Positions 3,184 through 19,477 of a DNA stretch of 20,345 nt are shown here, in pieces (position 1 is the stretch's first letter; the number at the start of each line of letters is the position of its first letter). The DNA is from a virus, in the IMG/VR virus record IMGVR_UViG_3300037189_007487, positions 1-20,345 of that record; one strand, written 5' to 3'. Made by a program: the position numbers and the translations under genes. A model generated the notes under the pieces. It did not search any database. It saw only the letters and a program-made list of their open reading frames with translations, and was not told the DNA's origin.

Positions 3184-3189
3184 TTGTCA

Positions 3190-3387: not shown

Positions 3388-3411
3388 ACCAACCACTTGA
3401 AAGGTATTGCT

Positions 3412-3723: not shown

Positions 3724-3744
3724 ACACAACCCTGAAAGACCATC

Positions 3745-3996: not shown

Positions 3997-4007
3997 AAGG
4001 TTTAAAC

Positions 4008-4190: not shown

Positions 4191-4197
4191 TTTCAGC

Positions 4198-4235: not shown

Positions 4236-4261
4236 ACTTCAACAACTCTGAAAGGCAAACT

Positions 4262-4420
4262 ATGTACAACATTCTTACAACCCTGCTTGCTACTGCACTG
4301 ATTATTTTCGGATCACAAAGTCTGGACGGCGGCTTGCTGTTTAAATTGGCACTGATTGTCGGCGGCATCTACCTTGGTCATGTGATGACCGATGCCTTAA
4401 ATAAATCTGACGGCGTGTAA
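4262..4420 (+). CDS. Small membrane protein, 52 aa
   Basis: This starts at the ATG at 4262 with GAAAGG eight bases upstream. Two hydrophobic segments (about residues 3-17, YNILTTLLATALIIFG, and 27-43, LLFKLALIVGGIYLGHV) predict a two-pass inner-membrane hairpin with a short polar loop SLDGG. There are no holin hallmarks beyond size, and it lies among early genes rather than beside an endolysin, so a lysis role is not supported. Its stop is in GTGTAAAC, which is also the upstream half of the promoter-like block for the next gene. Confidence 0.75.
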   Translation: MYNILTTLLATALIIFGSQSLDGGLLFKLALIVGGIYLGHVMTDALNKSDGV

Positions 4421-4455
4421 ACCGATCCGCTGTTTATACGTTATAGTACTAGCAC
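4413..4455 (+). promoter_or_regulatory. Phage early promoter-like block, copy B
   Basis: GCGTGTAAAC (4413-4422) and ACGTTATAGTACTAGCAC (4438-4455) repeat the arrangement at 3190-3233 with almost the same spacing. TATAGT (4442-4447) is a good -10. ACTAGCAC (4448-4455) is also found in the copy before 6617. It would give a separate start for the SprT-like/ATPase/VWA genes. Confidence 0.6.
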
Positions 4456-4489
4456 TCACACAACAACTATCACTAGCAAAGGAAAAATC

Positions 4490-5071: not shown

Positions 5072-5089
5072 ACATAAAGGAAAACCACA

Positions 5090-6547: not shown

Positions 6548-6560
6548 TCAGTCAACCAGT

Positions 6561-6594
6561 GTGCTAGTAATAGCGTTATACTATCCACTAGCAC
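6561..6594 (+). promoter_or_regulatory. Promoter with flanking inverted repeat before the VWA gene
   Basis: GTGCTAGT (6561-6568) and ACTAGCAC (6587-6594) form a perfect 8-bp inverted repeat with 18 bases between. In the middle is GCGTTATACT with -10 TATACT (6577-6582). ACTAGCAC and CGTTATA are shared with copy B at 4438-4455. The dyad around a -10 looks like an operator. No good -35 was found. Confidence 0.5.
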
Positions 6595-6616
6595 TATCAA
6601 ACAAGGGAGAATCAAA

Positions 6617-8203: not shown

Positions 8204-8212
8204 GGGGGAATC

Positions 8213-8410
8213 ATGATTGAAGTATCAATAACAGAGATAGCATTGTTTGCATGGGGTATGTTGGCAACGGCGATGGCATTGCATTTCCATCACAAGACGT
8301 ACCATTTGACACGCATCATGTATGAAATTCTGAGCAATCAGGACGTTAGAGAAAAAGCCATTCAATCATGGCGAGAATTTGAAACCAGTACTTTGAAAGG
8401 GAACAAATGA
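8213..8410 (+). CDS. Small membrane-anchored protein, 65 aa
   Basis: The ribosome site AGGGGGAA precedes ATG at 8213, nine bases after the VWA stop. A single hydrophobic helix spans about residues 5-24 (SITEIALFAWGMLATAMALH), followed by a His-rich, then charged cytosolic helix (REKAIQSWREFETSTLKG). The arrangement predicts an inner-membrane anchor with a C-terminal tail. It is unrecognised. It overlaps the next gene by ATGA, so they are co-translated. It could tether the ATPase/VWA complex to the membrane; that is speculation from position alone. Confidence 0.75.
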   Translation: MIEVSITEIALFAWGMLATAMALHFHHKTYHLTRIMYEILSNQDVREKAIQSWREFETSTLKGNK

Positions 8411-8640
8411 AAACCGATTTGATTCGTAGCGATAGCTACATTGAAACTATGACCGTACTTCCTATTGCCGCACTGGACGGTGCGTTTGAAGTGAAGATCA
8501 GCAGTCAACTGCTACACGCAAAAGATCCAGATCGATTGCACTCACGTTACCAAACCGTGATGAGCTTTGATGAGCTTTGCCGTTTAAACGATGACCTGAC
8601 AAAGTATCTGCGTTCGGTCGAACTGAAGGCTACAGCATGA
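8407..8640 (+). CDS. Hypothetical protein, 77 aa
   Basis: ATGA overlap with the previous gene and ATGA overlap with the next; GAAAGGG precedes the start. The product mixes a beta-rich first half (TVLPIAALDGAFEVKISSQ) with a helical second half (MSFDELCRLNDDLTKYLRSVEL). The segment encoding MSFDELC contains a 10-bp tandem duplication (GATGAGCTTT twice, about 8561-8580). GTTTAAAC occurs in frame as part of Arg-Leu-Asn (8582-8589). The gene is unrecognised; it is probably cytosolic. Confidence 0.75.
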   Translation: MKTDLIRSDSYIETMTVLPIAALDGAFEVKISSQLLHAKDPDRLHSRYQTVMSFDELCRLNDDLTKYLRSVELKATA

Positions 8641-8789
8641 AGGCGATAAGACTTTACGAACTGCTGAACAATGCAGGATTTAGATTTGAAGTGGTAGAGA
8701 TCATGGACGGTCTACGTGTAATCAGCGTAGAGGTCGATGAGTTTACCGATGATGAGTTGGACGATGAACTTAAACCGGAGGATATATGA
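8637..8789 (+). CDS. Small acidic protein, 50 aa
   Basis: A 50-codon gene starts by ATGA overlap at 8637 and ends by ATGA overlap into the gene at 8786, which makes the frame convincing despite its size. The product begins MKAIRLYELLNNAGFRFEVV and ends in a strongly acidic tail (VDEFTDDELDDELKPEDI). It has no membrane segment or cysteine motif. It is unrecognised; the acidic tail suggests protein binding or DNA mimicry, but there is no direct evidence. Confidence 0.65.
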   Translation: MKAIRLYELLNNAGFRFEVVEIMDGLRVISVEVDEFTDDELDDELKPEDI

Positions 8790-9049
8790 GCTTTACTAAA
8801 GATGAGTACATGGAGATCATGGAACTGGCTGACAAGATTGAAGATCATCTAGAGGGTGGCGACTTCATCTTAGGCATCAATGCCCTGATGGTTGTAGCCG
8901 CCAGAGGTGGACGGTTAGCCACGCACAAGTCAGAAAACATTTTTGAACGTGAAGAATTTGTTGAATTGTTTGCTGATAAGGTCGAATACTGGTGGGATTT
9001 TTATGATCACCTTGATGAGATTGATGCTATAAAAGCAAGGTCAAAATAA
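8786..9049 (+). CDS. Hypothetical acidic protein, 87 aa (paralogue of next gene)
   Basis: A strong GGAGG ribosome site precedes ATG at 8786. The protein is helical and acidic, with an N-terminal helix (MEIMELADKIEDHLEGG), a small-residue helix (INALMVVAARGGRL) and a C-terminal EREEFVELFADKVEYWWDF. The last block aligns with KEKFFERIDYVWEFENFF in the following gene, and the middle helices are also comparable, so the two look like diverged tandem duplicates. Function is unknown. Confidence 0.75.
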   Translation: MSFTKDEYMEIMELADKIEDHLEGGDFILGINALMVVAARGGRLATHKSENIFEREEFVELFADKVEYWWDFYDHLDEIDAIKARSK

Positions 9050-9060
9050 GGGAGCAAATC

Positions 9061-9291
9061 ATGCCCAAACTTGAGTCAGCAAATAAAGACATAGCCATGT
9101 TCTACGAGGGTATCGTAGAGATGGTGAGTCACTCCGAGGTTGATGTATCAGCGACACTGGCAGTGTTGTCAAAGGTGTTGGTGTTGCTGTCTATGTCAAC
9201 TGGCGAGGATAAAGAAAAATTCTTTGAACGCATAGACTATGTCTGGGAGTTTGAGAATTTCTTTCAACCCGATAGCAGTGAAAAGCACTGA
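9061..9291 (+). CDS. Hypothetical acidic protein, 76 aa (paralogue of previous gene)
   Basis: GGGAGC lies before the ATG, 11 bases after the previous stop. The order is helix, small-residue hydrophobic helix (ATLAVLSKVLVLLSMSTG), then an aromatic acidic end (FFERIDYVWEFENFF), the same as in the gene at 8786. The hydrophobic helix is too short and too flanked by charge to be clearly transmembrane. After the TGA, GTTTAAAC lies at 9296-9303. Unrecognised. Confidence 0.75.
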   Translation: MPKLESANKDIAMFYEGIVEMVSHSEVDVSATLAVLSKVLVLLSMSTGEDKEKFFERIDYVWEFENFFQPDSSEKH

Positions 9292-9322
9292 CTACGTTTA
9301 AACAAACAACGAAGGAAAACAA

Positions 9323-9478
9323 ATGGACAAAGATTTTGTGTTGCAGACTATCCGCAATCTGATGTCATTGGTAGGTGCGCTTGAGCCTGAGCCTGAGTGG
9401 CGAGAGTATTACATGATCGATGAAGTTCTACAAGACGCAGACCGTGCAATTCAATTGTTAATCAAGGGAGATGAATAA
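9323..9478 (+). CDS. Small protein, 51 aa
   Basis: AAGGAAAAC precedes the ATG at 9323. The frame runs 51 codons and its TAA shares a base with the next start (TAATG), a normal coupled junction. The product is MDKDFVLQTIRNLMSLVG, a short Pro-Glu repeat (EPEPEW), then MIDEVLQDADRAIQLLIKG. It looks like a two-helix protein. It is unrecognised. Confidence 0.65.
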   Translation: MDKDFVLQTIRNLMSLVGALEPEPEWREYYMIDEVLQDADRAIQLLIKGDE

Positions 9479-9759
9479 TGGCTAGATTGATCCAAGGGCA
9501 TGACGATGAATGGGTGTTGCGTGATGAATGGGGTGTCGATGACATTCGTAGTGTCATTGAGACTGAGGGCATCGAAGATGCGGAAGACTTTACCGATGAA
9601 GATTGCATCAACGTAATGAAGATTGCCGAGACTGCATTCGATGCCAATATCGGTTTGAATTGGGATTCAATTGCATCGGCTGTCAACTTCTACATGGACT
9701 GCAAGCGGGACGGTACACCCATGTTCTACCGTGGTCAGCCTATCAAGGTGACCGCATGA
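9478..9759 (+). CDS. Hypothetical acidic protein, 93 aa
   Basis: AAGGGAG lies before the start, which overlaps the previous stop by one base. The protein is strongly acidic (HDDEWVLRDEWGVDDI, EGIEDAEDFTDEDC), then less charged with an aromatic C-terminal part (WDSIASAVNFYMDC, MFYRGQPIKV). The shape suggests a small globular cytosolic protein. It is not recognised. ATGA overlaps the next gene. Confidence 0.75.
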   Translation: MARLIQGHDDEWVLRDEWGVDDIRSVIETEGIEDAEDFTDEDCINVMKIAETAFDANIGLNWDSIASAVNFYMDCKRDGTPMFYRGQPIKVTA

Positions 9760-9995
9760 GGGTAGTCAAGGTATTGGCTGACCCATCACCCACGTTTGCA
9801 TCTGCTGTAGCCCCTTGGGAGTGCGTAGAGGTCGTTAGAACGGCTGATGCAGTCCCAAAGGGTGAGAAGTACATCAAGTATAAAGACGGTGCTTGGGTGG
9901 TCTATCGCAAGCCTAGAGTGCATCTGGCTACACCACGTTTCATCAGTCGGTTTGACAATGTACTTTCAGCCGTTCATTCTGCGCGGCTTGTTTAA
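9756..9995 (+). CDS. Hypothetical protein, 79 aa, last gene of the rightward early operon
   Basis: The start is the ATG overlapping the previous stop (ATGA), with AAGGTG five bases upstream. A longer in-frame reading would run inside the previous gene and is rejected. The product is beta-rich and basic in the second half (GEKYIKYKDGAWVVYRKPRVHL). The stop is in GTTTAAAC (9990-9997), within a longer palindrome TTGTTTAAACAA. A hairpin and a strong terminator follow, so this closes the operon. Confidence 0.7.
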   Translation: MRVVKVLADPSPTFASAVAPWECVEVVRTADAVPKGEKYIKYKDGAWVVYRKPRVHLATPRFISRFDNVLSAVHSARLV

Positions 9996-10005
9996 ACAAA
10001 GCTCA

Positions 10006-10022
10006 CCGGGTAGCTCACCCGG
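10006..10022 (+). terminator. Upstream hairpin of the terminator region
   Basis: CCGGGT (10006-10011) pairs with ACCCGG (10017-10022) over loop AGCTC. The block AGCTCACCGGG also repeats imperfectly as AGCTCACCCGGG. No T-run follows; it probably assists the stronger terminator 20 bp further on. Confidence 0.5.
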
Positions 10023-10042
10023 GATTTAAATAGCGTTTAAAC

Positions 10043-10070
10043 GGGGGATAAGATTTCTTATCCCCCTTTT
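10043..10070. terminator. Bidirectional intrinsic terminator between convergent operons
   Basis: GGGGGATAAG (10043-10052) pairs perfectly with CTTATCCCCC (10057-10066) across loop ATTT, followed by TTTT and a further T-rich stretch. It ends the rightward operon (last gene stops at 9995). It also lies just after the leftward primase-helicase stop at 10077, so it can serve both. GTTTAAAC (10035-10042) abuts the stem. Confidence 0.9.
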
Positions 10071-10076
10071 CTTTGC

Positions 10077-11762
10077 CTAGAACTGATCCAGATTTTCCTC
10101 ATACGTTCCGCTGATTTTGTTGTACAGCAGGGACGTTTCACCTTGTGTGCCTACCCATCTATAGCGGCACTTCCATACGGCGATTTCAACGCAACCCTCA
10201 CCACGGTGAACGGTGATACCGCAATCGGTCTTAGCCCACCAAGCCATCGAACCTGAGATGGACATACCGTCCGGTCTTGGTTGATCTACGCCTGATCGAT
10301 TGATCTTTGATGGGTGCGCTACGAACCATGTATGGATAGCGTGTTGCTTACAGAACTTCTGAACCCTTGTCAGCATATTGCTGATGGCTTCTGTCTCTGT
10401 CTGGCTAGACTTATTCATCTCAATGTAGTTGTAGGGATCGATGACCAATCCCTTTACACCAAGCTTGGTGACTGCTGTTGCCGCACGATCCAGAATTGAA
10501 TCCAATGTTGACGGCTCATCGCCGTTTGTTTCAATGAACACAAAATGATCCTGCACCCATTTAAACGCTTCATCGCGTTCGCTGGTTGTCATGCGTTCTT
10601 TGCCGTCGAAGAATCTTTTCTTTGTGTAAATCTCCATCAGTCGGCTGATGTGGATCTCCGGTTGATTCTCAAACGAGCAGATGGCAAACTTCCAATCCTC
10701 ATTGCGTCCGAGATTGACCATCAACTGATCGACGAAGTTAGATTTGCCTGAGCTTGGGTAACCAGTGACAACTGTAAGCTGTGAAGGTGCAACCGTGTAA
10801 ATCTGATCCACCGAGTCGTAGCCCGTACTGCAACCCTTTCCCGTTCCGGCTGCGTAGAGATTGTTTAAACGGTCGTTGAACTGCGCTGCTCGCAAAAGTC
10901 CGGTGATCGGATATGGCTCGGCTGCGTCAATAATTTTCTTCAGTATGTTAGCGGGGCGATCATCAAGTGTCGGGTCATCATCTGTTAAGACCTCGTTGAA
11001 ATCTTTCTTTGAAAACTTGGCAAGTCTGCACTTGTCTTTACCTATCCTGCGAGCCAACTCTTCGGCTAAGACCTGACCTGCTTGGTCTTGATCTGTCGCT
11101 ATGACAATGTAGGGAGCTTTATCGATGACCGTTCTTGCGTTCTGTATAAACGCAAAACGCTTCTCATCGCCTTTGGCTTCGGTTAGCTTCTGCGGCGCAC
11201 CTGAAGGTACAGACACTACATTGTTTAAACCCGCCTCAACGGCGGATAAGACATCCATCTCGCCTTCGACAATGATGATTGGCTCACCGTTCTTTATGTT
11301 GTCGATGTTGAAGAAGTCGTGCGCTCCTCCCATATCTTGGGTGAAGTCTTTGCCCTCAATGGATCTGTACTTGGTGGCAACCAACACACCGCCACGGTAG
11401 TAGGGAAATGCAATGGCTTGGGTTACCTTACCGATCTTGTGAAAAAACTTCTCTGCTGATGTCAGCCCGAGCTTATCGGCTGTGACTTTGGATATTCCTC
11501 GGCTTTCTAACCAGTCATAGTGCGTATTAGTTAGATGGGCGGTGGGTTTGATTGCTTGGACAACTGACAATTTGATTTCCTTTCGTGGTTGAACTACACC
11601 GTTCTCAAAGCAATGGTGGCAGTGGTAGATTACCGCCCCATCATCTTTGCGAGTCAGCGTCATATCTTTTAGATTTTGTTTTTTTCTTTCGGGCGTGCAG
11701 TAAGGACAGATCACCCGCGCACTACTTCCAAAGTGCGTTTGCGCTACCAGCTCGGCAATCAT
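10077..11762 (-). CDS. Bifunctional DNA primase-helicase (T7 gp4/Twinkle type)
   Basis: 561 residues, close to T7 gp4 (566). Domains in order: zinc ribbon C19-x2-C22 and C48-x2-C51 for template recognition; TOPRIM primase core with EGEMD at 166-170 and DQDQ at 224-227; then a RecA-like DnaB-family helicase with Walker A GYPSSGKS at 334-341 and a Walker B-type GLVIDPYNYIE. It makes RNA primers and unwinds DNA at the fork as a ring. The ATG overlaps the stop of the upstream HNH-like gene (ATGA). It is the last and largest gene of the leftward operon and ends at the shared terminator. With no DNA polymerase in view, it must work with one encoded outside the window or with the host's. GTTTAAAC lies inside at 10863 and 11223. 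Confidence 0.95.
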   Translation of the reverse strand: MIAELVAQTHFGSSARVICPYCTPERKKQNLKDMTLTRKDDGAVIYHCHHCFENGVVQPRKEIKLSVVQAIKPTAHLTNTHYDWLESRGISKVTADKLGLTSAEKFFHKIGKVTQAIAFPYYRGGVLVATKYRSIEGKDFTQDMGGAHDFFNIDNIKNGEPIIIVEGEMDVLSAVEAGLNNVVSVPSGAPQKLTEAKGDEKRFAFIQNARTVIDKAPYIVIATDQDQAGQVLAEELARRIGKDKCRLAKFSKKDFNEVLTDDDPTLDDRPANILKKIIDAAEPYPITGLLRAAQFNDRLNNLYAAGTGKGCSTGYDSVDQIYTVAPSQLTVVTGYPSSGKSNFVDQLMVNLGRNEDWKFAICSFENQPEIHISRLMEIYTKKRFFDGKERMTTSERDEAFKWVQDHFVFIETNGDEPSTLDSILDRAATAVTKLGVKGLVIDPYNYIEMNKSSQTETEAISNMLTRVQKFCKQHAIHTWFVAHPSKINRSGVDQPRPDGMSISGSMAWWAKTDCGITVHRGEGCVEIAVWKCRYRWVGTQGETSLLYNKISGTYEENLDQF

Positions 11763-11998
11763 TTCATGCTGCCATCAGAATTGCGTTTAAATGAACGGTT
11801 CTTGCTGGGCGATTGCAGTTTGATGCCAGTAGCGTTTGACCCTCCCTTGCTTAAAGCTTTAACGTGCGCAACGTCTTTGCCTTTTCGGTCTACGCCTTTT
11901 GCGTCAAGCTTGCGTCTGGCTCGTTGACGTTCCATGCGGTTCTCATGTTCACCACGATCAACCTGCGTTTTGTATTCTTGTTTATAGTTGCGAGTCAT
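11759..11998 (-). CDS. Small HNH-like protein, 79 aa
   Basis: The start is the ATG at 11998 with AAGGAG eight bases upstream; a TTG seven codons earlier has no ribosome site. The N-terminal half is a charged helix (EHENRMERQRARRKLDA). The C-terminal half, GKDVAHVKALSKGGSNATG then SPSKNRSF, has the D-x2-H45 then N55 then N67 spacing of an HNH (beta-beta-alpha metal) fold without a zinc-binding CxxC. Phages often carry such small nucleases for packaging or DNA processing, but catalytic activity is inferred. It sits directly before the primase-helicase and is co-translated with it. Confidence 0.65.
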   Translation of the reverse strand: MTRNYKQEYKTQVDRGEHENRMERQRARRKLDAKGVDRKGKDVAHVKALSKGGSNATGIKLQSPSKNRSFKRNSDGSMK

Positions 11999-12167
11999 TC
12001 GCTTGTCTCCTTGCTTCAATCATTGCGTCTGCTTCAATGTAAGCAAGCTTGGCTCTTTGTTCTGGCCTTGCCTGCCCCGCATCAAAAACATCTCTTGAAT
12101 TCATCCCTGCCATTGCAAATGCGGCAAACAAATCCCGCATCGTCAAGTTGTTTAAATCTGTTTCCAT
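11982..12167 (-). CDS. Small conserved phage protein, 61 aa (paralogue of 19470-19670)
   Basis: ATG at 12167 with AAGGA five to six bases upstream; extending upstream would enter the previous coding end. The core, NLTMRDLFAAFAMAG then RAKLAYIEADAMIEARR, matches the MTLRDYFAAKAMQ then AKVAYMQADAMLKARE of the gene at 19470. This is a two-helix pattern I remember as very frequent in phages of proteobacteria, always of unknown function. Having one copy in the leftward replication operon and one in the rightward operon is unusual. It overlaps the next gene by 17 bases. Confidence 0.75.
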   Translation of the reverse strand: METDLNNLTMRDLFAAFAMAGMNSRDVFDAGQARPEQRAKLAYIEADAMIEARRQANDSQL

Positions 12168-12174
12168 GTTGTCC

Positions 12175-12654
12175 TTAAAGCTTTGTGAATTTAACCGCAC
12201 TCACTGGGCATGAGTAAATCGGCTGTGTGAAGTCTTTGTAACGTGAGTCCTTAACATTCTTGACAGTCCAGAGGTTTTTGGTGTCTCCCATGATGATTGC
12301 GGCATGAGTCATGTTCTTGTTAAGGATGATGTATGAGTGCGGCTTTGGCTTTGCGTTGTCATATGAATGCTGTGCGCAGACATATATTCCATCTTTAAAA
12401 GGATAATCTTGTGCGCAGGTAAAGTCAATGGAACGAACCTTGACTTCCATGCGTTGATGGAGAAATAAATCACCGTTGTCAATGTGATTCATTCGGTCTT
12501 CGTAAGATGATTGGACTACGACCATCGGCGGGACAGTGACGGTGTAGCCCTTATCGTTTAGCCATGCGGCAACTCTTTGAACGCCTGACTTGCTTTTCTC
12601 TACGTTGACCAGAATGTCCTGATGGTTCTGTTCGTTCTCTTGATCAGTCGGCAT
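12175..12654 (-). CDS. PD-(D/E)XK-like nuclease-fold protein, 159 aa
   Basis: The ATG at 12654 overlaps the upstream stop by 11 bases; upstream in-frame ATG codons lie within the other gene and are rejected. The segment NGDLFLHQRMEVKVRSIDF has the restriction-like core D62 followed by E70-x-K72 with beta-strand spacing. It is preceded by a helix (SGVQRVAAWLNDKGYTV) as in VRR or Holliday-resolvase-like folds. The C-terminal half has several His and Tyr residues (YVCAQHSYDNAKPKPHSY). It is likely a DNA-end or junction nuclease in the replication operon, but the family is not identified and the fold call rests on one motif. Confidence 0.55.
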   Translation of the reverse strand: MPTDQENEQNHQDILVNVEKSKSGVQRVAAWLNDKGYTVTVPPMVVVQSSYEDRMNHIDNGDLFLHQRMEVKVRSIDFTCAQDYPFKDGIYVCAQHSYDNAKPKPHSYIILNKNMTHAAIIMGDTKNLWTVKNVKDSRYKDFTQPIYSCPVSAVKFTKL

Positions 12655-12853
12655 TTCCAAAGTCCAATTTTGTTTGGTCGGGCGGGGCGACTGTTTCGAT
12701 TGACGTACCTTCTGCGAGGTGTTTAACCAAGTCTTCTTGTGATGCAACACGCACGGTTAATTCCTGCGATGCAACAAATGATAGTGCTTGTGAGCGATGG
12801 TTTGCTCTTACTAGCCTAACGCCACGGTTACTTGCGATTAGATAAATTCTCAT
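12644..12853 (-). CDS. Small conserved phage protein, 69 aa
   Basis: ATG at 12853 after AAAGGGAAAAC. The sequence MRIYLIASNRGVRLVRANHR, then ALSFVASQELTVRVASQEDLV, matches my memory of a short phage protein widespread in Burkholderiales phages (pattern RLVRA-N..QAL..VA...VRVASQ.DL). It is likely a compact alpha/beta domain with a disordered acidic tail. Function unknown. It overlaps both neighbours, showing a tightly coupled operon. Confidence 0.75.
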   Translation of the reverse strand: MRIYLIASNRGVRLVRANHRSQALSFVASQELTVRVASQEDLVKHLAEGTSIETVAPPDQTKLDFGNAD

Positions 12854-13064
12854 TGTTTTCCCTTTCAATTTGTTCTCTGATCATTTTTGTCAGCACCGCA
12901 AGCTGTGCGGCGCTCATTTGAAATACAGGTCTGCGGGAACCCCATAGATACCCCGCCGTGAAAATTTGTTTTGCTTGCTTCTTTGAGACGAAGTCGATGG
13001 GTTCATCGTCAGGATCACCTTCCCACCATTCCTCAAAAGCATCATCCATGTTTTTATCGCTCAT
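12828..13064 (-). CDS. Hypothetical acidic protein, 78 aa, first gene of the leftward replication operon
   Basis: ATG at 13064 after AGAGGA. It has an acidic start (DDAFEEWWEGDPDDEP), then KKQAKQIFTAGYLWGSRR, a pattern seen in many small phage proteins (F..W......A..AF.AG...), and a C-terminal helix (AAQLAVLTKMIREQIERENN). The upstream leader has a hairpin (13077-13090) one short step from the ribosome site and, further up, the proposed RNA switch, so expression of this operon is probably controlled in the leader. Function unknown. Confidence 0.75.
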   Translation of the reverse strand: MSDKNMDDAFEEWWEGDPDDEPIDFVSKKQAKQIFTAGYLWGSRRPVFQMSAAQLAVLTKMIREQIERENNENLSNRK

Positions 13065-13076
13065 TTATTCCTCTCT

Positions 13077-13096
13077 GCCCCTGACGGGGCTGTTTT
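13077..13096 (+). terminator. Hairpin with T-run; also abuts the leftward operon's ribosome site
   Basis: GCCCC (13077-13081), loop TGAC, GGGGC (13086-13090), then TGTTTT on the + strand, a short intrinsic-terminator shape for rightward transcription. For the leftward mRNA the same stem lies immediately upstream of the AGAGGA ribosome site of the gene at 13064. Which role is real is unclear. Confidence 0.45.
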
Positions 13097-13173
13097 AATA
13101 ATTTCACCCCAAAGACCCCCCTACCCCAGACGGAGTAAGAGAGGAGGTTCACCCGCCTTTACGGCATCATCAT

Positions 13174-13189
13174 GCTGACGTTAGTCAGC
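13174..13189. promoter_or_regulatory. Small perfect hairpin in the leader region
   Basis: GCTGAC (13174-13179), loop GTTA, GTCAGC (13184-13189). There is no adjacent T-run. It lies between the RNA-switch terminator and the first gene of the leftward operon, so it would be in the read-through mRNA leader. Confidence 0.4.
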
Positions 13190-13496
13190 CCCTCGGCTTG
13201 ATGATTCGACCAGCCGCACGGATTATTCGGGAACTGCCCCCTAGACGTATGTCGTACCGTGTACCCTTTTCTTCCACGCAGTCAGGCTGAACTCTTGCTA
13301 TCGGATGGAGTCCGGTCAGAAGTGAAAGGGCAACAAAAAAGCCGTTAGAACTGACCCCGGTGAGAAACCAAATTGTCTTTTGGACATTTGACACCCCATG
13401 CGGGGTCGGGATCAGATCTAACGGCTTGCTTGCTGGGTTTCTCACATCCAACGGTGAGAACTCTATCATATTTTCTATACGTGTCAAGCGGGTCAT
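13185..13496 (-). CDS. Doubtful ORF overlying the RNA-switch region, 103 aa
   Basis: An open frame of 103 codons from ATG at 13496 spans the entire structured RNA region. The product (GFFVALSLLTGLHPIARVQP, GGSSRIIRAAGRIIKPRG) has no clear fold but faintly recalls the Ash/Icd-like frames that overlie immunity RNAs of P4-like elements; this is memory only. No good ribosome site is seen, and the frame starts upstream of the promoter proposed at 13460-13487. The RNA structure may be the real constraint and the frame a by-product, or the two may overlap as in P4. Confidence 0.25.
   Translation of the reverse strand: MTRLTRIENMIEFSPLDVRNPASKPLDLIPTPHGVSNVQKTIWFLTGVSSNGFFVALSLLTGLHPIARVQPDCVEEKGTRYDIRLGGSSRIIRAAGRIIKPRG
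13335..13453 (-). ncRNA. Leader RNA with two mutually exclusive stems and a terminator (immunity-RNA-like switch)
   Basis: Read leftward from a start near 13453. The RNA has GTGAGAAACC (13445-13436), AAGCCGTTAGA (13427-13417), GGTTTCTCAC (13369-13360) and TCTAACGGCTT (13349-13339) followed by a U-run (13340-13335). Arms one and three pair, arms two and four pair, and the pairs interleave, so they form a pseudoknot or exclude each other. The second pair plus GACCCC/GGGGTC (13409-13404 with 13357-13352) makes a long terminator hairpin. The alternative frees it and allows a local ACCCC-GCAT-GGGGT hairpin. Termination here would shut off the primase operon (13064 to 10077). The arrangement resembles the transcription-termination immunity of phage P4; that comparison is inference. 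Confidence 0.55.
13460..13487 (-). promoter_or_regulatory. Leftward sigma70-type promoter for the leader RNA
   Basis: On the minus strand a perfect TTGACA (13487-13482), then 16 bases, then TAGAGT (13465-13460). Predicted start near 13453. TTCTCACC just at the start region (13460-13453) can pair with the GTGAGAA of the first switch arm, adding a third possible pairing if transcription begins a few bases earlier or comes from upstream. Confidence 0.55.
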
Positions 13497-13524
13497 GTAA
13501 AGATTTTTAGATTTTCTTTACATG
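13494..13524. promoter_or_regulatory. AT-rich 10-bp palindrome, candidate operator or hairpin
   Basis: CATGTAAAGA (13494-13503) and TCTTTACATG (13515-13524) are perfect inverted repeats separated by 11 A/T-rich bases. It lies directly upstream of the -35 box of the leader promoter, where a dimeric regulator could bind. It would also form a hairpin at the 3' end of any RNA coming leftward from the promoter at 13838-13867. Confidence 0.5.
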
Positions 13525-13831
13525 AGGTGTCGGCTACTCGCTACGTCTGTGGCGAACCAACTTTGATCGGCACACATTGGTATTGGTTGAGGCGACTTCA
13601 ACCACAGCATCCGCTTTCACCAACAAGAGTATGGACTGTTTGCAGTTGCGACCTGCACAGAGCATCGGGATGAAGAGCTTGGGGTTGACTAGCTTGCAAG
13701 ACATCTTCCCTCAGAGGCCCACTGACCGACTTCATACCTGCCAATCCACACACTTGTAGGAACTGGCGCAGGGAGTTCCAGACCGAACTGTTACGTATGC
13801 GAGGAGCATGATCCAGTTACTGTGCGCCAGC
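13525..13831 (-). ncRNA. Candidate structured leftward RNA of unknown class
   Basis: No strong gene fits this stretch. Read leftward from about 13831 it has TGCGCCAG/CTGGCGCA arms (+ strand 13763-13770 and 13823-13830, perfect 8 bp), an alternative hairpin GGAACT/AGTTCC (13759-13764, 13774-13779) that uses the same bases, and GGTTGA/TCAACC (13585-13590, 13598-13603) extended by CTGTGG/CCACAG. It does not match 6S RNA, tmRNA or RNase P as I know them. The overlapping hairpins again suggest alternative folds. Confidence 0.35.
13534..13704 (-). CDS. Possible small Cys-containing ORF, 56 aa
   Basis: The frame opens at an ATG at 13704, just two codons after an in-frame stop, with AGGGA very close to the ATG. 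The product has MSCKLVNPKLFIPMLCAGRN, then KQSILLLVKADAVVEV, and a basic tail RSKLVRHRRSE, with four cysteines. The composition looks protein-like, but the region also has strong RNA pairing, and the ribosome-site spacing is too short. It may be a small gene or chance. No homologue is recognised. Confidence 0.25.
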   Translation of the reverse strand: MSCKLVNPKLFIPMLCAGRNCKQSILLLVKADAVVEVASTNTNVCRSKLVRHRRSE

Positions 13832-13837
13832 AGTTTT

Positions 13838-13867
13838 AGTATAAACCAACTGTTCGCATCGGTGCAA
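13838..13867 (-). promoter_or_regulatory. Leftward promoter for the structured region
   Basis: On the minus strand TTGCAC (13867-13862), 18 bases, then TATACT (13843-13838), preceded by TT. It would start an RNA near 13831, heading into the structured region. The spacer holds ATGCGAACAGT (13859-13849), an 11-mer also found just downstream of the -10 of the terS promoter (2799-2789), a possible shared operator. Confidence 0.5.
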
Positions 13868-13885
13868 GTAAATTTTGCTTTGCTT

Positions 13886-13921
13886 TTTAATATAAGCTTC
13901 CGAAGTGAAGCTTATATTAAA
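13886..13921. other. Perfect 15-bp AT-rich hairpin
   Basis: TTTAATATAAGCTTC (13886-13900) pairs with GAAGCTTATATTAAA (13907-13921) across a six-base loop CGAAGT. There is no T-run on either side beyond the arms, so it is a weak terminator candidate but a strong cruciform or protein site. The rest of 13922-14009 has GTTTAAAC (13942-13949), a GTGGC/GCCAC hairpin (13989-14006) and no gene. Confidence 0.6.
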
Positions 13922-14009
13922 TTTCAGGACTTGTCAATAGCGTTTAAACACCAAAACCGGCAATAAGTACTTGTGGTAGTATTTGCTTGTGGCGAGCAGT
14001 TGCCACGGT

Positions 14010-14468
14010 TCATTTGATTTTCCTTTCTTTTGCCCGCTTTGATGCGGGCATTTTTTTGGGCATCTGCTCAATGATTATTTCTGCCCTTGGGTTCTCAGGA
14101 TCAAGCCCCCAGTACGTATGCCGCTCCTTTACCTGACGGTCGTTCACATATACCAACCCCTGCAACAGATCCAAGATCAGACTCTCATCTAAGTCCGGTC
14201 TGCGGGACGCATAGAAGATCGTGATGTGCATCCTAATATCCCCAGACATTAGAGGGGTAATTGGGGTAACCTGTTGCCGAAAATGCTCAGAATAGTCGAG
14301 AGCTTTCTGGCTCTTTATCAGTCTGGACATAGATCCAAACTTTACAACTCTGCGGGAATTTGCTTTTGATGCAGGTTCTCCAGAAATAAATAACACTAGC
14401 CCTTGCAATTCTTGCGTACAATCACTATTATTATCAGTCACAGGCATTTTCATACAAGGAGCATCCAT
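14010..14468 (-). CDS. rusA: RusA-family Holliday junction resolvase
   Basis: Up to 152 residues. The core FISGEPASKANSRRVV (from about residue 27), RRPDLDESLILDLLQG (89-104) and VYVNDRQVKE matches RusA. D92, D94 and D110 are in the places of its catalytic aspartates, with D100 between. The enzyme is a dimer that cuts four-way junctions made during recombination or replication. The start is uncertain: the ATG at 14468 has no ribosome site and shares its position with the start of the divergent exonuclease, while a GTG at 14396 after AAGGG would give 128 residues, nearer the usual length of about 120-130, though its spacing is short. The C-terminus is very basic (KKMPASKRAKERKIK). Confidence 0.9.
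   Translation of the reverse strand: MDAPCMKMPVTDNNSDCTQELQGLVLFISGEPASKANSRRVVKFGSMSRLIKSQKALDYSEHFRQQVTPITPLMSGDIRMHITIFYASRRPDLDESLILDLLQGLVYVNDRQVKERHTYWGLDPENPRAEIIIEQMPKKMPASKRAKERKIK
14032..14057 (+). terminator. Intrinsic terminator shape overlapping the 3' end of rusA
   Basis: GCCCGC (14032-14037), loop TTTGAT, GCGGGC (14044-14049), then A and seven T on the + strand. It lies inside the last codons of rusA, so it is oriented against it and would stop rightward transcripts coming from the 13.5-14.0 kb region before the recombination operon. Confidence 0.65.
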
Positions 14469-15337
14469 TGAAAATTACGAACAATCAGAATTTACCCGCA
14501 CCAGTCGTGGCTTTGTTGACTCGCAACTACTACACAAAGGGTAAATCTCAGTATAGCGTAACCGAGATAATGTCGCCACCAAAAATCAGAAGGTTGCGCG
14601 AACAATATGATGAACAGATAGAGGTTGATGTCACTTCATTGTTGGCTACGCAGTTCGGTACATTCATGCATGGCAAGTTGGAGGCCAAGGAAATTGAGGG
14701 TTATGTAAACGAGGAGCGGCTGTTTACCGAGGTGGACGGTGCGGTTATCAGCGGGGCGATTGATCTGCAACAGCAAACGCCTGACGGCGTGGTCATCATC
14801 GACTACAAGTTCGTCAAGGCTTATTCAGTGATGATGAACAAGATTGACTGGGAAGTCCAACTCAACATTTACAAATGGTTGGTCGAGACAGTTAAACACA
14901 CCAAGGTTGTTGGACTGCAAATCTGCGCATTTATCAAGGACTTCAATAAGTTTGAGACATCCAAAGAAGGTTACCCGCAAGCCGAGGCTGTGATGATTGA
15001 CATCCCTATGTGGGACGCAGTACGCACTGAAACGTACGTGCGGGAGAGATTGGAATTACATCGCAACGCAAAGGTTGCGCATGACTTTGGTGAGGAGCTA
15101 CCGCTCTGCACCGATGAGGAGAGGTGGGCAAAGGAAGCCGCCTACGCCGTGAAGAGGGACGGTCGCAAGACTGCGATCAGAGTGTTTAAAACCATAGAAG
15201 AAGCCACAGAGTTGGCAGAAAAGGAAAAAGGATATGTCGAAACAAGGAAAGGCGAGTACACAAGATGTACCGGAAACTACTGCGGAGTCGCCCAGTGGTG
15301 CGAACAATACCAAGGAGAACTCAATGAGTCCGCTTGA
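14468..15337 (+). CDS. PD-(D/E)XK exonuclease, Cas4/RecB-like, with cysteine cluster
   Basis: 289 residues from a TTG at 14468, chosen because AAGGAG (14456-14461) stands six bases upstream. The nuclease core is H68 (GTFMHGKLEA), D99 (SGAIDL), D112-Y-K114 (VIIDYKFVK) and Q131-x3-Y135 (QLNIYKWL), the RecB/Cas4 pattern for end resection. C214 and the C-terminal C267-x4-C272-x5-C278 could hold an iron-sulfur cluster, as in Cas4 and AddB, though C214 is placed differently. It lies directly before a single-strand annealing protein and an SSB-like protein: a phage exonuclease plus annealase recombination module. The start abuts the divergent rusA start. It overlaps the next gene by 14 bases. Confidence 0.85.
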   Translation: MKITNNQNLPAPVVALLTRNYYTKGKSQYSVTEIMSPPKIRRLREQYDEQIEVDVTSLLATQFGTFMHGKLEAKEIEGYVNEERLFTEVDGAVISGAIDLQQQTPDGVVIIDYKFVKAYSVMMNKIDWEVQLNIYKWLVETVKHTKVVGLQICAFIKDFNKFETSKEGYPQAEAVMIDIPMWDAVRTETYVRERLELHRNAKVAHDFGEELPLCTDEERWAKEAAYAVKRDGRKTAIRVFKTIEEATELAEKEKGYVETRKGEYTRCTGNYCGVAQWCEQYQGELNESA

Positions 15338-16052
15338 TTTACTGAAGATCAACGTCAATGACAAGACGGAGAAGAAGAATGGCATGACGTACCTGTCATG
15401 GGCTTGGGCATGGACAGAGGTTCTGAAAGCTGACCCTGCCGCCGACTTTGAAGTCAGGATGTTCCCTGACGGCACAGGAATTGGAATGACTCCGGCTATG
15501 TCTGTTGGTGACACTGCGATGGTTTGGGTAACCTGTACCGTCTTTGGCAAACCAATGACCTGCCAGTTGCCTGTTCTGGACTATCGCAACAAGCCTATCG
15601 CCAACCCCAATGCGATGGACATCAACACCGCCATCATGCGTTGCTTGGTCAAGGCTATCGCCTTGCACGGACTTGGTCTGTACATCTACAGTGGTGAAGA
15701 CACACCCCATGAAGAAGAGGTTAAGACGGTAACGGTTACAACGCCCAAGGCGACCGTAGAAATGACTGCTCCTGCGTCCGCACCCATTCCCGCCAAGGTT
15801 GAATTAACAGGGGCTTCTGTCGCCGCTGTGGACGCTCCCAAGGGGGATTGGACAGAGGAAGATGCTAAGAAGATCAGCGACACCCTGCTGGCGTTCCTTG
15901 GTGTTCACCGTGACCTGCCGGATTTAAACAGTTACTGGAAGAACAACCAAGTCGTCTTGGACAAGCTCAAGGCCAGCCACCCTGAGTTCTACAACGGAGT
16001 CCGTAATGGCTTTGCGGAATACAAGAAAACCCTGCAAGGAGCAGAAAAATGA
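15324..16052 (+). CDS. DUF1071-type single-strand annealing protein (Sak3-like)
   Basis: 242 residues from ATG at 15324 with AAGGAG seven bases upstream, overlapping the exonuclease. The N-terminal domain, KKNGMTYLSWAWAWTEVLK, then MTCQLPVLDYRNKPIANPNA, then MRCLVKAIALHGLGLYIYSGED, is the pattern of the DUF1071 group, which phage recombinase surveys place among annealing proteins (Sak3; from memory). A Thr/Ala/Pro-rich linker (about 135-170) leads to a C-terminal helical segment. It would coat single strands exposed by the exonuclease and anneal them. Its neighbours, nuclease and SSB-like protein, strongly support the role. Confidence 0.8.
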   Translation: MSPLDLLKINVNDKTEKKNGMTYLSWAWAWTEVLKADPAADFEVRMFPDGTGIGMTPAMSVGDTAMVWVTCTVFGKPMTCQLPVLDYRNKPIANPNAMDINTAIMRCLVKAIALHGLGLYIYSGEDTPHEEEVKTVTVTTPKATVEMTAPASAPIPAKVELTGASVAAVDAPKGDWTEEDAKKISDTLLAFLGVHRDLPDLNSYWKNNQVVLDKLKASHPEFYNGVRNGFAEYKKTLQGAEK

Positions 16053-16357
16053 CAGATAAAAAAGCGTACAAGCCCTATCCCGATAGCGGCTCTCTTCGTG
16101 CAACCATCAGCAAGCGCACTCCCATGTCGCCTGATTACTGGGGCAACATCGCCATCAATTTAAACGACCTGACCAACATCAAGACTGAGGATGGCCTGAC
16201 CGTCATCAAGCTCAGCGGCTGGAAAAAGGTAGACGCAAGCGGCAAGACTTACCTGTCTGTCAGCGTGGATCGATTTGTTCCTACCAATGCCGAGCAACCT
16301 CCTGCCGCCAAACCAAAAGCTCCAGCCGCAGGTATGGATGATGATGTACCTTTCTGA
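16049..16357 (+). CDS. SSB-like single-stranded DNA-binding protein, 102 aa
   Basis: ATGA overlap with the annealing gene. The body (LRATISKRTPMSPDYWGNIAI, then GLTVIKLSGWKKVDASGKTYLSVSVDRF, each read in parts) looks like five short beta strands of an OB-like domain. A Pro/Ala linker follows, and the protein ends DDDVPF, almost the DDDIPF tip by which bacterial SSB recruits partner enzymes. That ending is the main evidence. At 102 residues it is shorter than cellular SSB, as in many phages. It probably protects single-stranded DNA in recombination and replication. Confidence 0.75.
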   Translation: MTDKKAYKPYPDSGSLRATISKRTPMSPDYWGNIAINLNDLTNIKTEDGLTVIKLSGWKKVDASGKTYLSVSVDRFVPTNAEQPPAAKPKAPAAGMDDDVPF

Positions 16358-16365
16358 GAACCACT

Positions 16366-16752
16366 ATGGCTCTTCAGTTTGAAGCACGTAAGGTGGCGTT
16401 GAAACAGGACAGGACAGGATATGTCCTGACCCTGTCCCTGCACCCTGATGAAATACCGGAGGAACTCCTTCGGGATTTTGTTGGGGCTAGATACGGATGC
16501 GCACTTGTACGCATCCAAGACGATGAGTCTCCAACGGAGTACAGCAATCGTGTTCAGCAAGCGGGAATGCTTTGCCGGTCTGAGGATTTCCAGAACTTCT
16601 TTGGCGAGTTGGATGAAGCCAGTACTGCTGCTGAATTGTGTAAACGCTGTGGCATTAGCTCACGCAGTGAGCTTAATGGAAACAAGCAAGCGCAACAACT
16701 TTTCGATGACATTGTCATGGAATTCAAATCAGGATCACGCAATGACTTTTAG
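16366..16752 (+). CDS. Hypothetical protein, 128 aa, next to SSB-like gene
   Basis: ATG at 16366, eight bases after the SSB-like stop; the ribosome site is weak. The first half is beta-rich (ARKVALKQDRTGYVLTLSLH, then HPDEIPEELLRDFVGARYGCA), a pattern I recall from phage proteins beside SSB genes; the second half is helical (SSRSELNGNKQAQQLFDDIV). It has four cysteines without a clear zinc pattern. By position it may regulate or assist recombination, but the function is not known. It overlaps the next gene by 11 bases. Confidence 0.7.
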   Translation: MALQFEARKVALKQDRTGYVLTLSLHPDEIPEELLRDFVGARYGCALVRIQDDESPTEYSNRVQQAGMLCRSEDFQNFFGELDEASTAAELCKRCGISSRSELNGNKQAQQLFDDIVMEFKSGSRNDF

Positions 16753-17083
16753 TAAAAAATTCAAACCATTCATGGCCTACATAGCGGAGGATGAAATTGA
16801 GAGACTCCGCAGGTATGCAAAAGATACCAAGACACCGATGACTCAACTTATCAGGGAGGGTATATCTGCACGTATCACCAGCGACAACTTATTTGCCGAA
16901 GGATTCAATCAGGGATTGACTAAGGCGATAGGCGTTATCCATGAACTGCAATTTGCGCAGATGAGATTTCCGTCCGGAGCATCGTACGCAGAACTTATTG
17001 AAGACGAGTTAGTTAAGCACATGTGGCGCAAAACAGAGGAGGAATCGCATGAAGAAAGTGGGAGCGTCAAGGAATCAGTGTAG
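16742..17083 (+). CDS. Ribbon-helix-helix-type protein, 113 aa
   Basis: This starts at the ATG at 16742 inside the end of the previous gene; the longer upstream frame is an out-of-frame shadow. Residues 1-40 (FKPFMAYIAEDEIERLRRYAK, then TPMTQLIREGISARIT) have the strand-helix-helix spacing of RHH repressors (CopG/Arc type), where the strand pairs in a dimer to read DNA. A helical C-terminal region follows, with a Glu-rich tail. It could repress the operon or a distant site. No obvious repeated operator next to it was found. Confidence 0.6.
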   Translation: MTFSKKFKPFMAYIAEDEIERLRRYAKDTKTPMTQLIREGISARITSDNLFAEGFNQGLTKAIGVIHELQFAQMRFPSGASYAELIEDELVKHMWRKTEEESHEESGSVKESV

Positions 17084-17258
17084 AGGGTGCGGGGAATACT
17101 TCAACAGCAACTCAGCCTTTGAAGCTCACCGCACAGGGAAGTTTGGCGATGACCGTAGATGCAAGACCCATGAAGAAATGCACGCTGCTGGTTACCGTTT
17201 AAACAAAGATGGGTACTGGGCCGGAGAGCCTAGACCTGAAATAGAGATGAATGATTAA
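17049..17258 (+). CDS. Small zinc-finger protein, 69 aa
   Basis: GGAGG precedes the ATG, which lies inside the end of the RHH gene (35-base overlap). The ligand pattern is C11-x2-C14-x12-H27-x10-C38 in CRGCGEYFNSNSAFEAH then RTGKFGDDRRC, a single C2HC-type finger close to short phage proteins I remember from Burkholderiales phages. The second half (AGYRLNKDGYWAGEP) is a small conserved-looking beta hairpin. It probably binds nucleic acid or protein. GTTTAAAC is in frame as Arg-Leu-Asn at 17197-17204. Confidence 0.75.
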   Translation: MKKVGASRNQCRGCGEYFNSNSAFEAHRTGKFGDDRRCKTHEEMHAAGYRLNKDGYWAGEPRPEIEMND

Positions 17259-17276
17259 CAACTTAAAGGAAATCAA

Positions 17277-17930
17277 ATGAAAGAAGAAAGCTTTGTAATT
17301 TCACCGCCCAAGTTTGCACACACGGACTTTTACTTGGAAGGCATTGCCCCATTGGTTGTCGAGAGGTTTAGCAAAAAAGCTGAACTGATGGCAAAGATGG
17401 CAGAGGGCAAGTCTTCCGGTAGCCGCAAAGTTCGTGACGCAAGGGACTACGACAAAGAAGCCGAAGAAGCTCGCTATCGTAGCCATGAGGATTGGGAAGG
17501 CATGAATGCCGCCGCATTCAGAGCCGCAATGATTTCTGCGTGTCGTCTGGTTGGTTTCAAAATGACGTTGGCAAAGCTGTCTACGTTCGTTGAAGCTGAT
17601 GGGTATGACAAGCAGGATGGCATTCCTTTGGTTCGTATATACGGCACTAGCCATGTATATACAGCGCACACAAGGAATGCAACAGGCGTAGTTGACATCC
17701 GCTCCCGTCCTATGTACAGCGAGTGGGCTTGCAAACTACGTGTTCGGTATGACTTGGATCAATTCAAAACTGGCGATGTTCTAAACCTTGTAAGTCGTTG
17801 CGGTCTACAGGTTGGGATAGGTGCTGGTCGTCCTGATAGCAAAGCAAGCGCAGGATGTGGATTTGGATTATTCCAAGTTGTGCCAAGCGACAGAGAGGCT
17901 GAAGTACGTGCCAAGTTTGGCATCGTTTAA
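17277..17930 (+). CDS. Conserved phage protein of unknown function, possible RAMP/Cas7-like fold
   Basis: 217 residues after AAAGGAAATC. Features: a short beta N-terminus, a charged helical insert (40-72), then GMNAAAFRAAMISACRLVGF (75-94), which resembles the PASSLRGALR-type motif of RAMP (Cas7/Csm3) proteins, and MTLAKLSTFVEADG. Then come DIRSRPMYSEW and a glycine-rich C-terminus VGIGAGRPDSK then SAGCGFGLF (179-199) like the G-rich loop of RAMP folds. I remember similar uncharacterised proteins in other phages, but no confirmed function. The RAMP idea is pattern inference and needs a structure comparison. The stop is inside GTTTAAAC (17925-17932), and the GGNNN array starts right after. Confidence 0.7.
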   Translation: MKEESFVISPPKFAHTDFYLEGIAPLVVERFSKKAELMAKMAEGKSSGSRKVRDARDYDKEAEEARYRSHEDWEGMNAAAFRAAMISACRLVGFKMTLAKLSTFVEADGYDKQDGIPLVRIYGTSHVYTAHTRNATGVVDIRSRPMYSEWACKLRVRYDLDQFKTGDVLNLVSRCGLQVGIGAGRPDSKASAGCGFGLFQVVPSDREAEVRAKFGIV

Positions 17931-17937
17931 ACCATAG

Positions 17938-18462
17938 CAGGCCCGGCTGGTTAAGGCTGCGTCAGGATTGGTTGGGCGTGGCAGGCGTGGCAAGGAGAGG
18001 TTAGGCAGGCTTGGAGGGTTCCGGCGTGGCGCGGTCAGACCCGGCCCGGTTGGGTAAGGCAAGGCAGGCTAGGCGCGGCGCGGTTCGTTGCGGTTTGGAT
18101 TGGTTTGGTATGGCAGGCTAGGCTCGGATTGGCACGGCGCGGTGCGGCAAGGATCGGCAGGGCAGGTTAGGTTTGGCAGGTCAGGGTCTGGATTGGAACA
18201 GTCAGGCACGGTAAGGCAGGCTAGGTGCGGCGAGGCTCGGCACGGTTTGGATTGGTGTGGCATGGCAGGCATGGAACGACTAGGACAGGCTTGGTGTGGA
18301 GAGGTTTGGCGCGGAAAGGCAGGCGAGGCGGGGTACGTCGCGGTGCGGTCAGGTGAGGCAGGTCGGGCATGGCAAGGCATGGCACGGTTGGGTTGGGAGC
18401 GGTCTGGCATAGCAGGCGAGGCATGGCGCGGAATGTTCAGGTTTGATACGGTAAGGCAGGCA
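17938..18462 (+). repeat. Degenerate pentanucleotide array, (GGNNN)n, about 525 bp
   Basis: The + strand is built from GG followed by three variable bases about a hundred times, for example GGCAA, GGATC, GGTTT, GGCGC, with occasional four-base GGCA units that shift the register. G is very common and C less so. No two stretches are long exact copies, so it is not ordinary slippage of one unit. Open frames through it (rich in Gly, Arg, Trp, Ala on one strand; Pro, Cys, His on the other) are artefacts of the period. It is bounded on both sides by GTTTAAAC (17925-17932 and 18465-18472). Confidence 0.9.
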
Positions 18463-18485
18463 TTGTTTAAACAAAAGGAGTTGAA

Positions 18486-18947
18486 ATGAACGCAGAAAAG
18501 AAGTTTTTAGAGAAATTAGCAAATCAAAATGGTGGCATCCTGATGGTTGATGATGTGATTGAGGCGGCAAAGGATAAGTCCTGCGTCCTTCACCATCATT
18601 TTGAATGGGATGACACTGAGGCGGCTAAGGCTTATCGTAAGGAACAAGCACGTAGCCTGATTCGTAAATGCAAGATTGTTCTGGTGGACATGCCATCTGC
18701 TGAGATTAGAGCTTTCACAAGCTTGCCGTCAGACCGTGAGAGCGGCGGCGGTTACAGATTGACATCTACAGTTTTGAATGATCAGCAGATGCGATTGGAA
18801 TTCATGCATGACATTGAATTGACAATTGCTAGATGGAAGTCAAAGCTTCATTTGCTTGACCCAAGAACGGCTGAGCTTTTACTTGATCTTGAGGAATCAA
18901 TTTCAAGCGGCAAGATTACTCAACAAAACGCCCAACAGGTGGCATAA
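18486..18947 (+). CDS. Conserved phage protein of unknown function, 153 aa
   Basis: AAAAGGAG lies five bases before the ATG and directly after the GTTTAAAC that closes the array. The first half has a recurrent phage pattern: GGILMVDDVIEAAKD, then CVLHHHFEWDDTEAAKAYR, then KEQARSLIRKCKIVLVD, likely a helix-turn-helix-like start and a conserved WDD loop. The C-terminal half is a helix bundle (EFMHDIELTIARWKSKLH, ELLLDLEESISSG). I remember relatives in phages, none with a known role. Confidence 0.75.
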   Translation: MNAEKKFLEKLANQNGGILMVDDVIEAAKDKSCVLHHHFEWDDTEAAKAYRKEQARSLIRKCKIVLVDMPSAEIRAFTSLPSDRESGGGYRLTSTVLNDQQMRLEFMHDIELTIARWKSKLHLLDPRTAELLLDLEESISSGKITQQNAQQVA

Positions 18948-18956
18948 GGAGACAGT

Positions 18957-19112
18957 ATGAATTGGGCTTCATTTATTGGTATAGCGTGTTTCATTGCATG
19001 GCTCACGCACATTTTTACCTGCTTTGCACAATCCATGTGGGGATTCTTGGTTGCTGGCGCAATCTTTTTCCCGATAGGAATTCTTCATGGCTTCTACCTC
19101 TGGTTTCACTAA
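18957..19112 (+). CDS. Small membrane protein, 51 aa
   Basis: AAGGAG six bases before the ATG. The product is almost entirely hydrophobic with two segments (FIGIACFIAWLTHIFTCF and WGFLVAGAIFFPIGILHG), predicting a two-pass inner-membrane hairpin. The frame ends just at the AAGGAG of the next gene. It could be holin-like by shape but has no lysis neighbours here. Confidence 0.65.
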   Translation: MNWASFIGIACFIAWLTHIFTCFAQSMWGFLVAGAIFFPIGILHGFYLWFH

Positions 19113-19122
19113 GGAGAAGATC

Positions 19123-19242
19123 ATGTGGGACGTACTTGTAACGCTAATGCTGATGGGCTTTGGCGCATTCATGGTTATCGTTGTGGGTGCTGTCTTCATA
19201 GCGGCAATCTTCTATATGCAGAACGGAGGTAAAGGTGACTGA
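19123..19242 (+). CDS. Small membrane protein, 39 aa
   Basis: AAGGAG precedes ATG at 19123. One long hydrophobic helix (LMLMGFGAFMVIVVGAVFIA, about residues 8-30) and a short polar tail NGGKGD. It overlaps the next gene's GTG start by eight bases, and its last codons hold that gene's GGAGG site. With the preceding gene it forms a pair of tiny membrane proteins of unknown role. Confidence 0.6.
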   Translation: MWDVLVTLMLMGFGAFMVIVVGAVFIAAIFYMQNGGKGD

Positions 19243-19477
19243 ATCCAGATTGTTTGACCCGGAAGCAGAAGAGTTTAAACATCTTGAGCTTATGAACAGG
19301 CTCAGGGAAGATCATCAAAGAAACATGGAGCCACCCAAAACCCAGCAACAGTTCTATGACGAACTGCGTAATGGAGTCATTGAGGAGGTTGCAGTGTCTA
19401 TTGAGAAGATGCGTGGCTTCGGCAAGGACACTATCGACTCGTTTGCAATATACATCAGGAAGATGAAAAATGACTAA
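19235..19477 (+). CDS. Hypothetical protein, 80 aa
   Basis: A GTG start at 19235 is supported by GGAGG five bases upstream. The product is charged and helical: LFDPEAEEFKHLELMNRLRE, then TQQQFYDELRNGVIEEVAVS, then IEKMRGFGKDTIDSFAIYIR. The last part resembles a phage pattern I remember (IE.M..FG.DT..SFA.Y). GTTTAAAC is in frame (19273-19280, Phe-Lys). Function unknown. It overlaps the next gene by eight bases. Confidence 0.7.
   Translation: MTESRLFDPEAEEFKHLELMNRLREDHQRNMEPPKTQQQFYDELRNGVIEEVAVSIEKMRGFGKDTIDSFAIYIRKMKND

Follow-up and report, generated by a model that had tools for sequence, protein, structure and literature searches.

The closest described counterpart of the locus analyzed here is VIPR, a system reported only in 2026 (preprint PMC13142463), with few natural targets known, in which a phage-encoded RAMP protein is combined with guide RNAs built from GGY and NN in alternation. 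As described in the preprint, the Vipr protein is a RAMP homolog with an RRM core, a G-loop, and a thumb; each guide (vrRNA) consists of 9–16 tandem YNNGG repeats in which GGY is conserved and NN is hypervariable; and the vipr gene, found mainly in phages and prophages, adjoins long intergenic stretches, typically together with a vap gene (PMC13142463). Recognition of DNA by the NN pairs with one skipped base was shown for SUSP1, and silencing was demonstrated for the SUSP1 VIPR only (PMC13142463). TldR likewise provides phage-encoded, RNA-guided control of transcription; it is described as regulating flagellin, and no pentamer array appears in the abstract of the report (PMC13418256).

Here, we describe a locus in a 20,345-nucleotide stretch of viral DNA (the window; IMG/VR virus record IMGVR_UViG_3300037189_007487, positions 1 to 20,345) that also carries terminase genes. 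Three elements follow each other on the plus strand: a 217-aa gene (17277–17930), a non-coding array of GGYNN pentamers in GGCA-separated modules (about 17940–18463), identified by a lag-5 test, a unit parse, and an entropy profile, and the start of a 153-aa gene (18486–18947). With high confidence, we classify this locus as a VIPR system, in which the stretch is very probably a VIPR guide array, and we propose that the complex it serves would silence the integrases of rivals. The homology and fold of the Vipr protein, the linkage of gene and array, the array grammar, and a statistical match between guides and integrases support this reading.

Based on a profile match and a predicted RAMP fold, the product of the 217-aa gene, which ends about 10 bp 5' of the array, is a Vipr protein. 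A profile (A1) of the window protein and 65 proteins from other array loci (66 in total), with no SUSP1 sequence included, matched the solved SUSP1 Vipr (PDB 36pp_D) over its length with an E-value of 4.7e-43. The best-ranked fold matches of the AlphaFold (AF2) model (pLDDT 86.9, pTM 0.82) were all CRISPR RAMPs resembling Csm3/Cas7. PDB 36pp is more recent than the fold library and does not appear among the matches listed, and the link to the solved Vipr therefore rests on the sequence profile. The protein falls in phrog_4652, a family of unknown function, and contains near its C-terminus a conserved glycine-rich loop, AGxxVGIGxxRPxxxxxFGxF. The fold is shared with Csm3/Cas7 of Class 1 CRISPR systems (VIA Z 10.7, rmsd 3.1 over 148 residues), whereas the sequence identity is about 10%, there are no CRISPR repeats, the protein is a single small one, and the guide is gapped instead of contiguous. 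The array itself does not have the CRISPR signature of identical repeats and unique spacers, and Pfam, PHROG, and PADLOC named no cas genes among the submitted proteins, a subset of the ORFs of a record that is itself a fragment.

The array had been predicted from the sequence as pentamers that share GG while the other three bases vary freely, and the proposed autocorrelation check confirmed it, with 75 GG pairs at lag 5 compared to 21.8 (sd 4.1; maximum 38) in 1000 dinucleotide shuffles. The array can be divided into 108 units, and the final one extends into the palindrome to its right; eleven are four-mers (ten GGCA and one AGCA) and the remainder are pentamers. In the arrays of the clade, blocks of mostly 7–12 pentamers alternate with GGCA four-mers, so that GGCA, originally thought to reset the phase, does more than this by marking modules. 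Among 439 unique clade blocks, positions 1 and 2 are G, and positions 4 and 5 are nearly free (entropy of about 1.8–2.0 bits in the block interior), less so in the first and last pentamers of a block. The third position is not free: it is almost never G (C>T>A), and A in roughly one-tenth to one-fifth of the units makes the scaffold GGH rather than strictly GGY. Comparison with the closest relative (L129, 98% Vipr identity), likewise proposed at the outset, revealed strongly different content, with only the ends and a few units in common, which implies that array content turns over quickly. No structured 3' tail of the SUSP1 vrRNA kind was seen; the modules abut with GGCA alone between them, and the guide boundaries were therefore drawn from GGCA.

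Open frames of 113–133 aa run through parts of the array, and repetitive protein-coding sequence was accordingly considered and rejected as almost certainly wrong: no frame spans the array, the four-base units shift the frame, the free positions keep no codon phase, and relatives vary freely. The stretch is thus non-coding, as the original prediction had it, and its suspicion that similar arrays are misannotated as ORFs in other phages was borne out by gp52 of Mycobacterium phage Philus (L208:3041-3973), an annotated CDS in which a GG array and the Vipr gene are joined and whose start is probably misannotated. Some repetitive, GG-rich "hypothetical proteins" annotated in phages may therefore be guide arrays that went unrecognized.

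The functions initially offered for the array ranged from a binding track for a G-reading protein to a two-layer G-quadruplex, a long structured RNA, a sponge, or a packaging or recombination signal. GG at every 4–5 bases in principle allows two-layer quadruplexes, and an RNA or DNA element of this or another structured kind (decoy, sponge, packaging signal) would depend on the GG spacing alone. A quadruplex has no need of a third position that prefers C or T and almost never accepts G, and the strict GGCA module grammar, the obligate link to a RAMP protein, and the codon-framed information in the free bases likewise make this explanation highly improbable. Plain RNA folding of the array, with a tool that models no quadruplexes, gave z = -0.71, no better than shuffles, which speaks against a globally structured long RNA; no Rfam family or hammerhead ribozyme matched the array, and nothing pointed to a packaging or recombination signal. 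Two of the original ideas were supported: the GG spacing is under selection, and the array appears to work with a protein that reads a G-containing scaffold. The list of options lacked a more specific possibility, namely an RNA array of many guides in which the free bases spell out DNA targets.

The array had also been taken for a cassette boxed by copies of GTTTAAAC. Copies of this palindrome do occur at both ends, the left one overlapping the stop codon of the 217-aa gene, but the cassette was rejected: the 20 kb window contains 24 copies in total (0.3 expected), of which these are just 2, and in most relatives the same gene and array occur without the motif. The copies are spread over positions 453–19280, in coding and non-coding DNA and with little flanking consensus, and are sparse at 11231–17196, where gaps of 2.7 and 3.3 kb occur. 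Some relatives (L152, L156, and L166) also have the motif at high density, whereas most have none. In this genome, it is a feature unrelated to the array, and it might serve one host or phage lineage as a site of binding or modification.

The Vipr gene and the array travel together. Of the 101 Vipr relatives detected among virus contigs, 80 were fetched, and in all 80 the array lies directly downstream of vipr, usually starting within 60 bp. In the opposite direction, a DNA-pattern scan of IMG/VR for eight consecutive GGHNN units, the search for further arrays that had been suggested, found at least 120 stretches, and among the loci collected by DNA pattern alone a Vipr homolog was present in at least 46 with the first profile and at least 75 after iteration. 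Phages of Mycobacterium and Gordonia in GenBank were recovered independently by array DNA and by the Vipr protein search. The carriers are mainly phages (101 virus-contig relatives and 33 phage records). GGCA punctuation occurs in the arrays of Viprs close to that of the window and not in SUSP1. Four loci (L050, L097, L101, and L057) have very long or multiple GG arrays that flank the Vipr gene on both sides and are without GGCA; these are other VIPR architectures.

The 153-aa gene (18486–18947, plus strand; phrog_15946) is a candidate vipr-accessory (vap) gene by virtue of its conserved position. Its family is kept in 80 of 80 clade loci, as the only other neighbor conserved in all of them, and is present in 21 of the 73 loci that were collected through their array DNA, on the same strand in 101 of 101 cases. 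Relatives of the protein adjoin Vipr in cyanophage Cy-LDV1, in phage Philus, and on a Rhodoplanes plasmid. The latter (L311; Rhodoplanes serenus, NZ_LR026982.1), a 54-kb element with phage head and tail genes, encodes a Vipr homolog with 53% identity along with an accessory gene of the same kind as that of the window, and is likely a phage-plasmid.

The locus thus resembles the SUSP1 VIPR (type II; PDB 36pp) in a RAMP protein of about 20–24 kDa beside non-coding GGY/NN tandem repeats, in hypervariable NN, in being phage-borne, and in targets that fit decoding with a 1-nt skip. It differs in several respects. In SUSP1, the vrRNAs are separate, comprise about 15 units each, lack GGCA, and are followed by a non-repeat tail, whereas here a continuous array is punctuated by GGCA every 7–12 pentamers, giving modules mostly slightly shorter than the 9–16 repeats per guide of VIPR. 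The accessory gene is also different, with no significant profile similarity to SUSP1 vap1 (E 0.03–0.1), and the targets are, by sequence match, integrases rather than a satellite. With neither a structured 3' tail per guide nor a vap1-like accessory gene, the locus was not assigned to type II. VIPR types with staggered arrays and overlapping vrRNAs are included in the preprint (PMC13142463, fig. S18), and continuous arrays like that of the window may be shown there.

Across the clade, NN usage agrees much more closely with codon positions 1 and 2, on both strands, than with either alternative register, with weak strand coherence within blocks (z 1.7). A first target test against 1.6 Mb of DNA gave no excess. 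A degenerate 1-nt-skip pattern derived from two window modules, B4 and B7, and a similar module of relative L173 retrieved 65 contigs; in about half of these, the match lies antisense in a Pfam-checked tyrosine integrase, where it covers the catalytic-tyrosine box (..ALAHTIKNKVEAAYRRG..) and skips the wobble bases. When 29 integrases from this search were compared with the non-redundant clade guides, strong matches appeared only at the 1-nt skip, where 51 of 444 guides passed (controls, 5–16), 45 of them antisense and 46 in frame 0. The matched boxes include HTIANKVEAAY (22/22), VHGFRSTFRDW (22/22), and KAGKEHKVPL (20/20). When the comparison was extended to all 70 integrases, antisense matches in the codon frame were obtained for 138 of 583 guides, compared to 26 after shuffling, and one or more such guides were present in 61 of 64 distinct arrays. 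The catalytic-tyrosine box is over-represented in both the 29- and the 70-integrase sets, for which the reference integrases with this box were gathered with B4/B7-derived patterns. An independent set, free of this bias, was assembled from bacterial genomes by homology over the whole protein and comprised 31 integrase ORFs; there, 22 guides match antisense in the codon frame compared to a mean of 3.05 and a maximum of 7 in 20 shuffles, and skips of 0, 2, and 3 yield 1, 6, and 6 matching guides. Finally, a blind exact scan with a guide common to eight arrays hit two contigs, both at a Pfam Phage_integrase, in a second integrase subfamily at F-EKGLNPMEV. This excess at skip 1, and not at 0, 2, or 3 nor with shuffled guides, suggests, on statistical grounds only, that the NN pairs recognize DNA with a 1-nt skip.

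In the window, all modules lie on the plus strand. B4 (18067–18111; TA-GC-GC-TC-GC-TT-TT-TT-AT, antisense codons I-K-N/K-K-A-E/D-A-A-Y) reads under the one-base-skip rule as IKNKAEAAY, the catalytic-tyrosine box of phage integrases, and matches 18 of 18 bases in at least 11 integrases. Its exact matches also include one unrelated phage gene family, so that a target could not be considered proven from the match of a single block. B7 (18219–18263; TA-GC-GA-TC-AC-TT-TT-GT-AT) is a variant of B4 that matches ITNKVEAAY at 17 of 18 bases; the antisense differences among B4, B7, and the L173 module are conservative codon changes in one peptide. An exact B7 scan of 84,980 species genomes gave eight matches, none an integrase by context. 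B5 (18116–18160) may read the integrase box LD(W)AAV..Y, with 15 of 18 bases matching LDWAAVRNY; 3% of order shuffles score as well, a degenerate scan gave 14 matches in unrelated genes, at chance level, and related clade guides match LDWATVKGY better, so that this assignment is suggestive only. Exact scans with nine units gave no match for B3 (18008–18062; 11 pentamers), in viral contigs, and none for B8 (18268–18317). B10 (18361–18410), whose target is uncertain, had 12 matches for eight units, near chance; about half of them fall in one gene family, which encodes a small protein of enterobacterial prophages (..DRA[AQQVIFMR]EGYPYE..; L299, L300, L303, L304, L306, and L309). B1, B3, B6, and B8 to B11, with B11 (18415–18454) scored in the same test, had no convincing match among the 70 integrases, and the decoded window guides are thus B4, B7, and perhaps B5 only.

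Most guides of the window are undecoded, and about three quarters of the clade guides have no integrase match; moreover, guides recur in related arrays, so the counts are not fully independent. The array could then be a VIPR array for which integrases are not working targets, with guides that address other elements and a similarity that reflects a partial repertoire or descent from a few old guides. This we regard as unlikely, if deserving of some weight, given that the matches fall on many separate conserved boxes, antisense and in codon frame, with non-redundant guides and in an independent set, and that the blind scan gave integrases only. Less likely still is a domesticated switch, in which the phage would silence its own integrase or that of a close relative to control lysis and lysogeny, as might be surmised from guides against lysogeny regulators of prophages reported in the preprint (PMC13142463). 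None of 25 carrier contigs (19–66 kb, the window included), records that may be incomplete, encodes a PF00589 integrase, so that the guides do not appear to address a gene of the carriers themselves. A Vipr profile search of 14 targeted contigs, run without a positive control, found none.

Integrases of competing elements are the targets we propose, and the mechanism we infer for this locus comprises transcription, processing at GGCA, binding, silencing, and a benefit to the phage. The phage would make the small RAMP protein Vipr and a same-strand RNA built of fixed GGY scaffold triplets and, in alternation with them, pairs of free bases, one module of about 7–12 pentamers between GGCA four-mers serving as one guide. 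Vipr subunits would probably coat the RNA, one per pentamer, presenting the NN pairs for base pairing with double-stranded DNA, each third target base being skipped as in SUSP1 (PMC13142463). In this clade, the base skipped in tyrosine-integrase genes is the wobble base of the codon, so that a guide would read a conserved protein motif and could match a wide variety of integrases. If the complex acts like that of SUSP1, a temperate competitor would have its integrase gene silenced and its integration or excision blocked. On balance, we consider it likely that phages of this widespread clade, devoid of a tyrosine integrase of their own, carry VIPR panels that read integrase boxes in DNA as a broad-spectrum anti-integration weapon, with continuous GGCA-punctuated arrays as their hallmark. 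VIPR is a known kind of system, and anti-integrase guide panels are absent from the main text of the preprint (PMC13142463). If correct, this reading gives a large environmental clade a concrete role, that of phages reading catalytic integrase codons and thereby hindering rival mobile elements from integrating or excising; it would make the one-base skip useful as wobble-blind reading of a protein motif, and the arrays decodable from sequence alone, with test cases ready at hand. Elsewhere in the window, at 5090–8203, adjacent genes for a MoxR-like AAA ATPase and a von Willebrand/CobT-like protein form an odd pair for a phage.
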